From contig JAISUT010000018.1 of NCBI GenBank assembly GCA_031271905.1, forward strand, positions 1-57,875: a stretch of 57,875 nt of DNA, in the 5' to 3' direction. Of the stretch, positions 35,563-45,330 are shown piece by piece. The notes below the pieces were generated by a model. It searched no databases and was not told where the DNA came from. It worked only from the letters and a program-made list of their open reading frames with translations. A program made the position numbers and the translations under genes. Source of the DNA: Acidobacteriota bacterium (GTDB lineage Bacteria; Acidobacteriota; UBA6911). Numbering within the stretch: position 1 is the first letter of the stretch; each line of letters starts with the position of its first letter.

Positions 35563-37269
35563 CTACCGCCACTTGTCGATTTGGACGGACTGCGCGGGCA
35601 CCATGCCTCCCATGTTGAAATAGTTGTTGTTGGAGCCGCCGGTGACGATGACCGAGAACGTCCCGCCGGCCTTGCGCACGCCCATGTTGATGTCGGCCGG
35701 GCCGCCCGCCGGCGGCTTGGCGCCGGGCTTCAGGCCGGTCACCCATTCCGTGAACTTGTCCACGGTGTCGTATCCGGCGTCCCGGACGTAGTTGGCGATC
35801 GGCGGGCTCAGGATGGCGCAGGTCCCGAACAGATGCGCGTCCTGCGTGTTGTAGATCTCCTTGATGATCCCCGGATAATCCATGTTCGGCCCCCAGACGG
35901 TCGCCGCCCAGTTCTTGGCGGAAAGGACGCCCCAGCCCATGAACAGCGTGACGACGTTCTCCCCCGGCTTGAACCCGCGCCGGACGGCCAGCGGCTTGAA
36001 GGGCGACTTCTCCTCGTTCTCGGCGATGATGATGTTGATCAGATTCATGGGGTTGCCGATCGTGCCCATGTAGGTGGTCCCCACCTTGCCGCAGTTGCCG
36101 CCGTTGATCGACAGCAGGCTCCATGCCCGGCCGATAGCCGTGTTGGCGAGCGCATAGGGGCCGACGGCGCCTTCCTCGTAGTTCAGGCCGATCTCGTCGC
36201 GGATCCTGCCGTTGATCACGGCGCCCGCCATGAAGCCGTTGTCCGACACGTTGACGGACGTCATGCCGGTGGAGCCCAGGGCCAGGATCACCGGGAAATA
36301 CTCCGGTTCCGCGCCCGCCATCACAGCGTTGATGGCGGCGGTCTTCACCGTGTACGTCCAAGCCTCCCCGGCTTCCGATCCGGGGTTCATGCGCCCGAGG
36401 ACTTCGTCCGGGTCGTGGCTGGTCTGGGCGAGCATAGCCGCGACCTTTTCCTCGGTCGGCAGGATTATCGGCAGGAAATCCGTGTAGCGCTTGTCGCGGA
36501 ACAGCCGTTGGAGCTCGTCCGGCGTGCCGGTGTAGGTGGCCGGCCCCAAGTCCTGCTTCACCGCCCCGGTCTTCTGCTCGTCTGCGGTCAGGGGCTTGGT
36601 GAGGAGTTCCACCATCTCCTTCATCACCGGCTTGCCGTTGACCGGGTTGTTGCCTTCGACGATCTGCTTCCGGAGCTGCTCGTTCGTCTTGCCCCAGACC
36701 GGGCCGCGGAAATACTGGATGCGCAGGCCGGGCATGCCGAGGTTGAAGGAAACTTCTTTTTCTTGTTTTTCAAAGTCGTTGAGGATGATGGGGATGGCGG
36801 GTTTCTTCATTTTGGATTCGATTTCGACCGAGAGGCGGACCGCCCCTGGAGCGCAAAGGCTTCAATGGCCGAGGCCGACGATGGCGGCGTCCCCGTTCTG
36901 TTCGATTTCCTTCCACAGGGCTTCGCTCAGGGAATCCAGGCCGGCGCCGGCGGAGCCGTCCTTGTAGACGATTTTAGTCTGGGGGTAGTTGGCTTTGAAC
37001 CAGTCGGACATCTCCGCCATGAGTCGGTCGGTTCCGATAAAACCGGTGTTCAGGAAATAGATGGTTTTGCCGTCCAGCTTGTCCAGGCGCGGCGCCTGCG
37101 GCTTCAGGGTGATCGGCGGCGGCGTGCCCATCGGGTTGTAAACGGTGATGACGGGCATGGCGGGCTCGCCGGCCTTTTTGCCCTGTGCGTAGGACGCCTT
37201 GTCCGACGTCGTCAAGCCGACGCCGACGCCCAGGCACAACATTGCAATCACAGCGATTCGTAACTTCAT
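35563..37269 (-). CDS. Exported selenoprotein, UGSC-type family, with in-frame TGA (Sec136) and long C-terminal domain
   Basis: Read as one gene, 568 residues with selenocysteine at the TGA 36864-36862. A signal peptide (LRIAVIAMLCLGVGVGL) is followed by PITLKPQAPRLDKLDGKTI and a thioredoxin-like alternation, then IVGLGH-U136-SLC139, then APGAVRLSVEIESK and IPIILNDFEKQ...LGMPGLRIQY. I recognise this as the UGSC (seleno)protein family, whose usual motif is U-G-S-C or U-G-T-C. The downstream frame is exactly in phase through 17 open codons, and its first ATG (36810) has no ribosome-binding site, whereas ATG 37269 has AAGGAGGG. Residues 190-568 (PATYTGTPDELQRLF to the end) form a second, uncharacterised domain family that I recall next to UGSC genes, with many conserved Asn-Gly blocks. 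Alternative: two genes or a nonsense mutation. Confidence 0.75.
36831..36864 (-). promoter_or_regulatory. Candidate bacterial SECIS hairpin after TGA
   Basis: After TGA (36864-36862) the minus strand reads 14 nt and then AGGGGCG-GTC-CGCCTCT (36847-36831). This is a 7-bp stem with one G-U pair and a loop starting G-U, the first loop base 22 nt downstream of the TGA. Bacterial SECIS elements are within the coding region, with a small apical loop containing G and U about 16-37 nt after the UGA. Confidence 0.55.
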
Positions 37270-37604
37270 AAACGCTCCCTCCTTCGGGGGGGTGATGGGA
37301 ACCTGATGCCTCTGTCGGGTTTTCCCGCCGCAGGAAGTTCCCTGCACCAGCGGGAAACGTTTGATTCTATTCCAAGGACTCCGGGGCGTGGAAGCGTTTT
37401 TTGCAGGCCTGAGCTTCGACCTGAGCTTCGGGAGGCCTGCCCGAGACCTGCCTGTTGAGACTTGCCTGCCAGCAGGCCCCTCGGCGCGGGTTCGGTCCGC
37501 TTGCCGGAAACGTCGGGGGGGGGCGGGCGCGCCCCCCTCTCTCACGAAAGCCCGCCGTTTCCCGGACGGTTCCCCAAAGCCTGCCGTTCGTTCGCGCCCC
37601 GCGT
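37270..37604. other. Intergenic region between the LDI-like and selenoprotein genes
   Basis: 335 bp on the same-strand pair. It holds the selenoprotein ribosome-binding site (minus AAGGAGGG near 37280), a direct repeat of CTGAGCTTCG within CAGGCCTGAGCTTCGACCTG and its inverted GGCCTG partner at 37405-37442 (possible terminator), and a poor -10-like TAGAAT on the minus strand near 37370. No ORF or repeat-family member is present. Confidence 0.4.
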
Positions 37605-39212
37605 TCATTCGCCCCGGATGAGGAAGGACTGGGGGCGGTCGAGTTCCGTCGCGACGGTGAGGACGCCGTCTTTGAAGGCGAGCGCCCCGGCTTGGGTCGA
37701 GGTGACGACGCCCTTGTCGAGACGCCCCACGGCTTTGCCGTTTCTGGTGACGGACCAGTTCTTCGACGGGTCGAGCTGGTTGACCGCAAAGGCCGTCTTG
37801 CCCGCGCCCTGGCCGCCGGACCGGTCGCCGGGCTCCAAGGTGACGGCGAGGACGGCTTTCTCCCGGTCGTAGAACGCCTGCCTGACGACCACTTGGGGAT
37901 GCGCGACGCCCGATATGAAGGGCTGGGCGAAGTAGTCGTCCCGCCACGGGCGGTTGTACAGCGCCCAGACCCCGTCCTTGACGTTGATCTCCGCCAGCGC
38001 CGCCGCGACGGTGAACAGCGGCGTTATCTTCAACTCGTCGTCGCGCGGGTAGTAGTAATACTTGCCGTCCACCCAACGGGGCGCGCAATGCGCCTCCATC
38101 CACGCGGCGAGCCCCGCCGCCGTCTCCCCGTCGCCCATCTCTTTGGCGTAGGCGGCGAAAATGGGCGCAGAGGACAGCCCCACGTTGTCGTCCGACAAAC
38201 CCGACCTGAAGGCGTCCGCCTCCCGAACCCTCCGGGCGTGGAGCGGGTAGATCTCTTCGACCAGCTCCGGGTTCCAGGCGTGCATCGAAATCGCGACGAA
38301 CGCGTTGTTGCCGGGCGAGGCGGGGCCGACGGGCATCTTCTGCTCGACCATGTAGAATTGCAGGAAGTCCCGCGTCTGCGGGTCGAGCAGTCCGTCGTCC
38401 TCGAACGCCTGCGCCACGAGGCCTTTGACCGACGGTGCCAAGCCGGTCCCGTGGTTGTGGTCGTAAAGCATCAAGCCGAGGAGCGGGGGCTGGTTGCAGA
38501 CGGGGAAGATCATGTTCAGCTCGCATTCGATCATGTGGTGGGGGTTGTCCGCGAACTGCCTGTGGATCACGGCGGCGAGCTTGCCGCCGTCGTATTTGAA
38601 CTCGTCCAGCAGCTCGCCCATCCACTCCCAGCGGAACGTGATCGCCCCCGGCTGGTCGTACTTGTCGTCGCGGTAGAGCATCTGGTACAGCTCGACCATG
38701 TTGACCAGGTGGCCGCTGTACATGATGTTCTTGTCGACCACGGGGTCGAGCCAGCCCGCCCCCTTGCGCTTCATCGCGGGGTTCATCGTCTTCGAGCCCT
38801 TGCTGACATGCTCCCAGTACGACCAGACGTCGCGGCGGACCATCTTCTGGATCATCCTGTCCATCGCCCGCTGGTACAGCTCCCGGTAGGCGGGCGTCTT
38901 GTGGTACTGCGCCAGCGCCAGCGCGTACGCCATGTAGCCGAGCTGGTAGCGGTACGCCTCCAGCCCCTCTTGGCCGGCCTCCTTCCCGCCCATGTGCGAC
39001 CAGTCCCCGAACGGCTGCTCGGCGAGCTTGACCAGCCACCGGACGTGCCCCAGCTCCTTGTCGGTCAGGGAGGGGTAGTCGTTGGCGACGGCGACGGCGT
39101 TGGCGGCGGTGTCGGTTTTCACGGGCGCTTGCGAGCCGCACCCTTGGTTGGTCGCTGCGGCGAGCAGCAACAGTGTGATCGCCGTCCATGCGGCGTTGGT
39201 GGATTTTGGCAT
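37605..39212 (-). CDS. Linalool dehydratase/isomerase-like exported protein
   Basis: A 535-residue exported protein resembling linalool dehydratase/isomerase (Ldi), a periplasmic enzyme with an alpha/alpha barrel that dehydrates or isomerises a tertiary alcohol. The matches I can see: DKNIMYSGHLVNMVELYQML (Ldi: ENIMYKGHLN) with His168, and MIECELNMIFPVCNQ with Cys230 and Cys239, spaced 9 like Ldi C171 and C180; plus LYDHNHGTGLA. These Cys and His are active-site residues in Ldi. About 20 residues are inserted between the His and Cys motifs, and a 150-residue beta-type C-terminus is additional. The N-terminus has a signal (AITLLLLAAATNQGC), perhaps a lipoprotein. ATG 39212 has AAGGAGG 7 nt upstream. 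The substrate is unknown. It is followed by the selenoprotein gene. Confidence 0.72.
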   Translation of the reverse strand: MPKSTNAAWTAITLLLLAAATNQGCGSQAPVKTDTAANAVAVANDYPSLTDKELGHVRWLVKLAEQPFGDWSHMGGKEAGQEGLEAYRYQLGYMAYALALAQYHKTPAYRELYQRAMDRMIQKMVRRDVWSYWEHVSKGSKTMNPAMKRKGAGWLDPVVDKNIMYSGHLVNMVELYQMLYRDDKYDQPGAITFRWEWMGELLDEFKYDGGKLAAVIHRQFADNPHHMIECELNMIFPVCNQPPLLGLMLYDHNHGTGLAPSVKGLVAQAFEDDGLLDPQTRDFLQFYMVEQKMPVGPASPGNNAFVAISMHAWNPELVEEIYPLHARRVREADAFRSGLSDDNVGLSSAPIFAAYAKEMGDGETAAGLAAWMEAHCAPRWVDGKYYYYPRDDELKITPLFTVAAALAEINVKDGVWALYNRPWRDDYFAQPFISGVAHPQVVVRQAFYDREKAVLAVTLEPGDRSGGQGAGKTAFAVNQLDPSKNWSVTRNGKAVGRLDKGVVTSTQAGALAFKDGVLTVATELDRPQSFLIRGE

Positions 39213-39250
39213 GGTGCCCCTCCTTCGGATGGAATTGGATGGATAAAGTT

Positions 39251-39406
39251 TCAATGGAGCGAACGCAGCATGGCCTCCCGCAGAATCGCGTTGGCGCGTC
39301 CGGTCAGGTTGGAATCGGACAAGGCTTTGGACCCGCGTGGAATCCGCAGGGGGGTGCGCACTGTCGTGTCGCCGAGTCGCCAAGGGCGTTTTTTCGAGAC
39401 ATCCAT
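39251..39406 (-). pseudogene. Truncated type II restriction endonuclease-like stub
   Basis: A 51-residue ORF starting 13 bp after the methyltransferase stop, with GAGGTG overlapping that stop as ribosome-binding site. Its sequence KKRPWRLGDTTVRTPLRIPR recalls the N-terminus of AlwI/BspD6I-type restriction endonucleases (W-x-G-x-T-T-x-R-x-P-x-R). It then ends abruptly at TGA, whereas such enzymes have hundreds of residues. The position after a double DNA-adenine methyltransferase is where the nuclease of a type IIS system would be. I read it as a nuclease deleted down to its N-terminus; family identity is from motif memory only. Confidence 0.5.
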
Positions 39407-42897: not shown

Positions 42898-44916
42898 TCA
42901 GAACTCGTAACGTAGTCCGCCGTAGAAGCTGCGGCCGGCCTCCGGGTAGTCCAGGTAAGTCTGGTTGGCGCCGTCCAGCAGGTTTGCGACCTCAAACCGC
43001 ACCGCGAGGCGACCGTGATGCTCCCACTGCCGGACGCCTTTCTCGACGCCCAGGTTCGCCACCGCGCCTTCTCCCGCCCAGATGTAGGTGCCGGCGGTCG
43101 GCGAGCCTGGACGATAGTCGCTGGTAAGGATGTCGCTGAAATAGACGGTGTTCAGGTTGATCGCCAGATCCCATTTCGTATGGCGGAAGTCCACGCCGGC
43201 GGTCAACGCCGCCTTGGGGGTGTTGGGCAGGACGTCGCTGCCGACACTGGCGACCTGCGCCGCGTCGCCGTTGTCCCTCGTGGTCAGGAGCGTCATGTTG
43301 ACATAGGGGCGTAAGGTGAAATCCCCGCCGGACGCCTTGCCGATGTCATAGCCTGCGGCCAGCTCCAGGCCGGACAGGGTGCTTTCAGCGAGGTTGATGT
43401 ACTGGTACGTCCACCCTGCGCCTGTGGATTTCGCCATGATCTTGTCGTCCCAGTTGGAATGGAACCAGGTCAGGCCGGCGTCGAAAGTCTCGTAGTTGAC
43501 ATCCACCCCCGCTTCGAAGGTCTTGCTCTTTTCCGGCTGGAGGTCTGCGTTGGCGACGTACCAGCCGCCCCCGCCCAAGTATTCGACGGGGGCGGGCATC
43601 CGAAAGCCCTCGGAATAGTTGGCCCTCACCTTCAACCACTTCACGGGCAGGAGCGCGACGCCGACGGAGGGGGCGAAGTTGTCGTCAGCCCTCTCCCTGC
43701 CTGCGGAAGCGTTCGAGAAATCGTCGTAACGGCCTCCCGCCGACAGGATTATCTTGTCGTCCAGGATGCGCACCTTGCCGGAGAAGTAGACGCCGGTGTC
43801 GGTGGAGTCGCTTCGCATGGCGTTATCCGCGTCCTCCAGCTCGTATTCCAAGCGGTCGAAACCGGCGCTCAGGGAGACATATTCGCCGGTATAGCCGATT
43901 TGGGCGGCGACGGACTTGTTGTCCAGGTCGGTGGTGCTGGGCGTCCCGCCCCATGACGAGCGGCTGGGGTCGCGCCGGTTCCGGTCGCGCCCGAAGGAGT
44001 AGCGGGCGGACCAGTCGAACGTCTTTCCCGGCGTCCCGCCTTCGTAAAGGAAGGCGAGGTTGCGGTTGTTCAGATCGCTGGCGTTGTAGGTGGCGCCCGT
44101 CGGGCCGGTGGCGGACCAGCCGCCGTCGGGGAACTTGTAGCCGTCCTGCCTGTAGAGGTTGTAGTTCACCCCTAGGCGGTGGCTTCCGGCGAAGGTGTAG
44201 CCGAAGTCCGCGTTCATCGAAAGCGAGGCGTCGATGCCGGTGTTTGCCCACACGTCCCCGCCGCTGACCGCCATGTCGTTCCGCCGAAAATGGGTTAAGC
44301 CGAGGGCGCCGTCGAAGCCGCCGCCGGACCCGTTCAGGCTCAACGATTCCTTGCCGAGGTCGAAGCTGCCCAGTCCGGCTTCCAGCGCGCCGGAGAACCC
44401 CTTCGTTCCGCGTTTGGTGATGATGTTGACCACGCCTCCCAGCGCTGAAGGGCCGTACTGAACCGCCGCCGGGCCGCGGATGATTTCGATGCGCTCGATG
44501 TTGTCCTTGTCGATGCCCATCAAACCCACGTTGTTGGCGCCGACGCGGCGGCCGTTGACGAGTGTCAGGACGCGGCTCTGGAGTTCCGCGCCCAGCGACG
44601 GCTGCCCCATGCCGCGGATGGACACGATCTTCTGGGCGCCTTGGTTGATGACTTGGAATCCGTTCTGGCTCATCAACTGGTCCAGGGAATTGGCGGTGGA
44701 GGATTTGATCTCCTCTTGGGAGATGACGGTGACGTTGCTGGTGACTTCACGCAGGCTCTCGGCTGCGCGGCTGGCGGTCACCACCACCTGGTCTAGGGTC
44801 GCGACGGCTGGAACCGCCCCGTCCTCGGCGGGTAGCAGCGTCGCGCAGCCGCCCAGCAACAGCGAGGCGGCGATTCTCAAAGCGGGTAGAACGGGTCTGC
44901 GAGGAGGTTTCCTCAT
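42898..44916 (-). CDS. btuB: TonB-dependent outer-membrane receptor, probable cobalamin (BtuB-type)
   Basis: A 672-residue receptor. A signal peptide (LRIAASLLLGGC) is followed by a TonB-box-like TLDQVVVTASR, the plug domain (SLDQLMSQNGFQV, VLTLVNGRRVG, IERIEIIRGPAAVQYGPSAL, GGVVNIITKRG) and a 22-strand barrel ending GGLRYEF, with the terminal Phe used for outer-membrane assembly. The leader contains a cobalamin riboswitch with a terminator, so vitamin B12 or another corrinoid is the likely substrate. GGAGAGAC 6 nt before ATG 44916 supports the start. tonB follows. The gap between them (42702-42897) has no separate gene. Confidence 0.88.
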   Translation of the reverse strand: MRKPPRRPVLPALRIAASLLLGGCATLLPAEDGAVPAVATLDQVVVTASRAAESLREVTSNVTVISQEEIKSSTANSLDQLMSQNGFQVINQGAQKIVSIRGMGQPSLGAELQSRVLTLVNGRRVGANNVGLMGIDKDNIERIEIIRGPAAVQYGPSALGGVVNIITKRGTKGFSGALEAGLGSFDLGKESLSLNGSGGGFDGALGLTHFRRNDMAVSGGDVWANTGIDASLSMNADFGYTFAGSHRLGVNYNLYRQDGYKFPDGGWSATGPTGATYNASDLNNRNLAFLYEGGTPGKTFDWSARYSFGRDRNRRDPSRSSWGGTPSTTDLDNKSVAAQIGYTGEYVSLSAGFDRLEYELEDADNAMRSDSTDTGVYFSGKVRILDDKIILSAGGRYDDFSNASAGRERADDNFAPSVGVALLPVKWLKVRANYSEGFRMPAPVEYLGGGGWYVANADLQPEKSKTFEAGVDVNYETFDAGLTWFHSNWDDKIMAKSTGAGWTYQYINLAESTLSGLELAAGYDIGKASGGDFTLRPYVNMTLLTTRDNGDAAQVASVGSDVLPNTPKAALTAGVDFRHTKWDLAINLNTVYFSDILTSDYRPGSPTAGTYIWAGEGAVANLGVEKGVRQWEHHGRLAVRFEVANLLDGANQTYLDYPEAGRSFYGGLRYEF

Positions 44917-45016
44917 GCGTGTCTCTCCATCATAACTAAGGGCGAATGCCGGGGGGGCGGGGGGGGCTGGAGTTCCTGCGCCGCCGTTGCGAGTCCCATC
45001 GCCAGTTGCCGTAAAC

Positions 45017-45060
45017 AAAAAAATCCCCGGGCTTGACCGATGTCGGCCAAACCCGGGGAT
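45017..45060 (-). terminator. Intrinsic terminator (riboswitch expression platform)
   Basis: Minus strand: ATCCCCGGG...CCCGGGGAT stem (45060-45023) around an 18-20 nt loop, followed by TTTTTTT. It lies between the cobalamin riboswitch and the receptor start, so it would abort transcription when the ligand is bound. Confidence 0.88.
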
Positions 45061-45164
45061 GCCGTTTTCCATCCTCGTTCGCCTGCCTCTATCCGCTGCG
45101 ATCCAGCATAATCCAGCCGCCACGTCCAGTCCTCGGGACGCGCGCGTGAATAGAGACAGCTGCC

Positions 45165-45312
45165 AGATTTTCGGCCAGGTCTTCCGGCTCCCGGATCGTC
45201 CTACTCGCCGCGCCTTCCCATCGCCTAGGCGACAGTGGCGTTGTGCGGCTTTAGTCCCCGGTTACGGCGGCGGGTCCGCGACGGCTTGCAACCGTCTTCC
45301 CTTAGACCGAAA
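45165..45312 (-). ncRNA. Cobalamin riboswitch
   Basis: On the minus strand the conserved order is present: AGGGAAGACGGTTGCAAGCC (start), the core GCCACTG, TGGGAAGG after it, and GAGCCGGAAGACCTGGCC near the 3' end (compare the E. coli btuB leader AGCCCGAAGACCTGCC). The order and spacing match an adenosylcobalamin aptamer. It starts 18-20 nt after a strong promoter and precedes a terminator and the TonB-dependent receptor. Confidence 0.9.
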
Positions 45313-45330
45313 CTCACAAACAGAAACGGC

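Follow-up and report, generated by a model that had tools for sequence, protein, structure and literature searches.

UGSC proteins (PF24696; NF041046) form an already known but little-studied family, many members of which contain selenocysteine (Sec) in a U/C-x-x-C motif. PrdB and GrdB of the proline and glycine reductases (TIGR04483, TIGR01917) also carry a UxxC motif. In clostridial glycine reductase operons, trxB-trxA lies beside the grd genes. A fusion of a UGSC selenoprotein with a conserved domain of unknown function (UGSC/Unknown_1) has been described from ocean metagenomes, in a paper whose remarks on the family suggest a thioredoxin-like fold (PMC2398784). Here, we describe a UGSC selenoprotein from an Acidobacteriota bacterium (contig JAISUT010000018.1; the window is the whole stretch analysed, 57,875 nt) which, as far as that published description goes, similarly joins a UGSC part to a conserved domain of unknown function. 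Our overall reading, to which we assign a probability of roughly 0.6, is that this is an exported selenoprotein and a fused two-part reductase, working like the proline and glycine reductases. The new elements are an exported fusion form, the expansion of that form and the mechanism we propose. The features of the locus are as follows.

35563..37269, minus strand: whole gene, 568 amino acids including readthrough of TGA codon 136; stop TAG
37277..37284, minus strand: Shine-Dalgarno sequence AAGGAGGG, 7 nt 5′ of the ATG (from the sequence)
37186..37269, minus strand: predicted Sec-type signal peptide, residues 1-28 (MKLRIAVIAMLCLGVGVGL...ASYA|Q), no lipobox (by eye; close homologues have similar N-termini)
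36664..37143, minus strand: UGSC domain, residues 43-202, modelled as Rossmann/flavodoxin-like (PF24696, E=1.8e-16; AlphaFold2 and Foldseek)
36862..36864, minus strand: TGA, probable selenocysteine 136 (column comparison; tRNA-Sec, SelA, SelB and SelD)
36853..36855, minus strand: putative resolving Cys139 of the UxxC motif (kept in 6/6 selenoproteins of the same genome and 75/75 related loci with that column covered)
36828..36849, minus strand: candidate SECIS hairpin, spanning nt 16-37 counted from the T of the TGA (paired-column comparison)
35566..36546, minus strand: C-terminal partner domain (residues 242-568), outside any named family (no Pfam, NCBIfam or PDB match; a separate gene elsewhere)

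The initial annotation took two open frames separated by a TGA to be one gene, and codon bias on both sides, together with a TGA column common to related loci, bears this out. On its sequence, the locus is a single gene for a single, predicted exported, selenoprotein, read through UGA 136. The frame opens with ATG at 37269, carries one in-frame TGA (codon 136 of 568), continues through 17 open codons to an ATG at 36810, and then runs uninterrupted to the TAG at 35563. As had been claimed, a ribosome-binding site (AAGGAGGG) precedes the first ATG, and the ATG at 36810 lacks a Shine-Dalgarno sequence. Both parts of the gene show the codon bias of the genome (score per codon +0.37 and +0.47), which is absent from the in-frame sequence before the ATG (-0.41) and from a long opposite-strand ORF (-0.27). 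The bias is weak in the 17 codons after the TGA (GC3 of 0.65, versus 0.84 and 0.91 for the gene parts), for which an overlapping SECIS hairpin could be the reason. The warning that automated annotation can split such genes has a precedent in Paracoccus ferrooxidans, where the UGSC gene is broken at its TGA and annotated as two small hypothetical proteins (locus L161, 6411-6980); there, the partner gene adjoins and selB lies 3.3 kb away. In the window, the upstream neighbour (37605-39383, minus strand) matches linalool dehydratase/isomerase (PF18566, 2.7e-86), and a cobalamin riboswitch (93.8 bits; 45157-45325, minus strand) stands upstream of a TonB-dependent receptor gene (42898-45123).

Sec is almost certainly incorporated at codon 136, judging from the related sequences and the content of the genome. 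Our scan of public genomes kept 77 related loci, 75 of which cover the Sec column, and in these the column holds TGA in 60, Cys in 14 and Trp (TGG) in one, a result in line with what the initial annotation expected of an alignment. The 60 TGA-bearing loci are spread over many separate assemblies. Since the same column is TGA in 60 other loci and Cys in 14 more, the TGA is not a chance event. In the tree, Cys forms are nested inside Sec forms at two places, which fits replacement of Sec by Cys. The Sec machinery called for in the earlier work is likewise present: the genome (3.4 Mb, 99.8% complete) encodes tRNA-Sec (70.3 bits, UCA anticodon), SelA (553.7 bits), SelB (364.6 bits) and SelD (364.9 bits). 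The selD gene (locus L036, 1501-2433, on contig C3 of this genome) has an in-frame TGA of its own, and SelD is itself probably a selenoprotein. An altered genetic code was considered and ruled out: TGA is the commonest stop in the stretches examined, ending 45 of 88 confidently predicted genes, so the code is unaltered. The one TGG belongs to a close relative in a record of Bacteroides sp. SM23_62 (locus L047, 2273-3994), which keeps the second Cys; it may reflect mutation, an error of assembly or misbinning of the contig.

Folding energy gave a weak and mixed signal for a SECIS element, and we therefore compared paired columns instead. A hairpin with at least four of its five pairs is found in 46 of 66 TGA genes versus 1 of 15 non-TGA genes, the latter being a narrow set, and the window gene forms all five pairs. 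Support for the candidate is partial, because of that narrow set and because the hairpin of the window gene is about as stable as its GC content would lead one to expect (z 0.12 for folding energy).

The initial annotation recognised the protein as UGSC-type with the variant motif U-S-L-C and a signal peptide. Family membership holds, in that Pfam PF24696 accepts the protein at 61.2 bits against a gathering cut-off of 25 and is matched by 60 of 60 aligned members (E up to 1). The motif is indeed U-S-L-C rather than the literal U/C-G-S-C of NF041046, and with 35.1 bits against a cut-off of 125 the protein is not accepted by this equivalog model; moreover, the UGSC part makes up only its first third. 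It also differs from the known family in being fused to a large partner and in its predicted export. The signal peptide holds too, as judged by eye from the sequence rather than with a signal-peptide program. In the full AlphaFold2 model (mean pLDDT 89), the UGSC part consists of alternating strands and helices, and U136 follows strand 128-134 and precedes helix 139-153. The closest PDB structures to this part by Foldseek are flavodoxin-like domains, and the UGSC domain is accordingly predicted to be Rossmann/flavodoxin-like. This differs from the thioredoxin-like fold suggested in PMC2398784, in its account of the family; the Rossmann order of strands and helices and the flavodoxin-like matches rule out a thioredoxin fold for the model. 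The C-terminal 330 or so residues match nothing in Pfam or NCBIfam, a profile search of PDB sequences gave no match for this domain, and Foldseek against solved structures gave no significant fold match. The best of the Foldseek matches, class I fumarate hydratase (E 0.015, probability 0.23), was not accepted.

Elsewhere, the two parts are encoded by separate genes. On plasmids of the haloarchaea Halalkalicoccus, Halorientalis and Natrinema, and in Arthrobacter and Roseovarius, a gene annotated as UGSC family (seleno)protein adjoins a homologue of the C-terminal domain annotated as hypothetical protein, and in Paracoccus the UGSC and partner genes are again separate and adjacent. The window gene is very probably a fusion of this two-gene pair. 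Thioredoxin genes recur in these surroundings: the gene row is trxB-trxA-partner-UGSC in Arthrobacter and partner-UGSC-trxB in Roseovarius, and in Variovorax trxB lies within the same gene run. At 11 of the 77 related loci, a TrxB-like gene (TIGR01292, CASC motif) is found, usually within 130 nt. By their N-termini, these 11 loci belong to relatives without an export signal, and for this reason we infer the reductase mechanism of the exported form by extension. Neither trxB nor another thiol donor was seen beside the window copy or among the scanned neighbours of its paralogs. The surroundings of annotated relatives resemble catabolic clusters, with TRAP or TTT transporters, CoA transferases, aconitase X, and dehydrogenases of the SDR and aldehyde types. 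The exported copies have no clear conserved neighbours, except for further UGSC paralogs in tandem.

A link to the proline and glycine reductases emerges from profile comparison. Among 60 members scanned against NCBIfam, five match TIGR01917 (best 2.8e-3) and four match TIGR04483 (best 3.3e-4); these matches are weak and far below the curated cut-offs, and the window protein itself matches neither model. When the UGSC profile was aligned by hhalign with a PrdB-like selenoprotein profile, built from Acidobacteriota selenoproteins, the score was 42 (E 8.2e-5), with both UxxC motifs in register and similar surrounding sequence; 100 column shuffles reached a maximum score of 25. This points to an active-site domain shared with PrdB and GrdB, not to membership of their families. 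The thioredoxin system near relatives is a further likeness. The window protein differs from PrdB and GrdB in its predicted export and its different partner domain, and no pyruvoyl-type GrdE/PrdA partner is present among the Pfam and NCBIfam matches of the fused protein or in the scanned immediate neighbours.

We read the protein as a two-part reductase because trxB often lies beside the separate halves, because the UGSC domain is Rossmann/flavodoxin-like in the model and because its UxxC aligns with that of PrdB and GrdB. By analogy with those enzymes, we would call the odds on reductase chemistry even. In the proposed mechanism, UGA 136 is decoded as Sec by the cell's own SelA, SelB, SelD and tRNA-Sec. 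U136 and Cys139 would then make up a UxxC active site where a helix begins, directly behind a central strand of the Rossmann-like UGSC domain, and the partner domain would hold a small organic substrate. The selenolate at 136 may attack the substrate, with reduction of a bond; Cys139 would resolve the resulting selenium intermediate by forming a selenenyl-sulfide, after which the thiol and selenol would be restored by a thioredoxin-type donor. In cytoplasmic relatives, TrxB/TrxA may be this donor. The exported form would need a thiol donor in the periplasm, for which the simplest conjecture is a thiol relay in that compartment. The envelope redox role put forward in the initial annotation was too vague: the neighbours of the cytoplasmic relatives and the likeness to PrdB and GrdB point more specifically to a thiol-driven reductase.

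The same genome contains eleven family members, of which six share a single TGA at this column and five lack it. The motifs of the six selenoproteins are U-S-L-C (the window protein), U-S-V-C, U-S-Q-C, U-S-S-C, U-W-G-C and U-D-G-C. The other five are distant paralogs on separate branches, with Ser, Thr or Met at the Sec column and the second Cys absent too. A non-Cys residue at this column had been named in advance as evidence against Sec, and here it does occur; these paralogs stand apart, however. Four paralogs, three of them in tandem (locus L025, 4224-9974, contig C67; locus L027, 7174-9078, contig C19), have twin-arginine lipoprotein-like signals; with Ser or Thr in the Sec column, and no second Cys, they seem to have lost the redox site. 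Another paralog (locus L030, 3464-6737, contig C23), without signal peptide or Sec, is followed by an FAD-dependent oxidoreductase (PF12831), and the same pairing occurs near aconitase X in Sporomusa termitida (locus L160). Ten genomes of the same genus have 11-33 family matches each, and in every genome between 6 and about 20 of the matches contain an in-frame TGA; the counts include some fragments, and contamination of these metagenome-assembled genomes is 1-7%. Among the genomes scanned from other genera of the same family and class, most genera have no family match at all.

The alternative that survives best is that the protein works in the envelope as a general thiol-disulfide oxidoreductase or as a peroxide scavenger, with no dedicated substrate and a partner domain that only binds client proteins. 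A UxxC motif and a predicted export signal would suit such a protein, and UGSC is grouped with thioredoxin-like redox proteins in the literature, where the family is treated (PMC2398784, PMC13188914). We nevertheless consider this unlikely, given a model that is Rossmann/flavodoxin-like rather than thioredoxin-like, relatives whose neighbouring genes serve transport and catabolism (TRAP/TTT transporters, CoA transferases, aldehyde dehydrogenase, aconitase X), and the retention by the genus of many diverged copies, a pattern suggestive of many substrates. It is less probable still that the U/Cys pair has a selenium or metal-binding role in the envelope, holding a soft metal or organometal instead of taking part in catalysis. 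Expansion within a lineage and export would be in keeping with detoxification, and other selenoprotein families have been suggested to contain metal ligands (PMC13188914), but the trxB/trxA genes beside relatives and the PrdB-like site favour redox turnover, and no metal-resistance genes are among the neighbours scanned. That the TGA marks a genuine stop, arose by an assembly error or a pseudogene mutation, or codes for Trp in this organism, as the TGA itself and the TGG of the one relative might suggest, is highly improbable in view of the 60 further loci from many assemblies with TGA at this column, the 14 with Cys, the use of TGA as commonest stop and the complete Sec machinery.

Returning to the proposed exported, fused reductase, the two richest genomes of the genus have about 17-20 Sec copies of this single family, a large number when set against the biggest complete bacterial selenoproteomes that a review quotes (57 and 63 genes, all families). 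It is possible, though the odds are against so broad a claim, that thiol-driven selenoenzymes related to PrdB and GrdB, made of UGSC and partner halves and exported, have multiplied within a single Acidobacteriota genus until each genome holds 6 to about 20 Sec paralogs, every one of them perhaps reducing a different small organic substrate in the periplasm. For the family at large, connecting UGSC with a defined partner domain, with trxB/trxA and with the active site of PrdB and GrdB would make it a testable three-part enzyme system.
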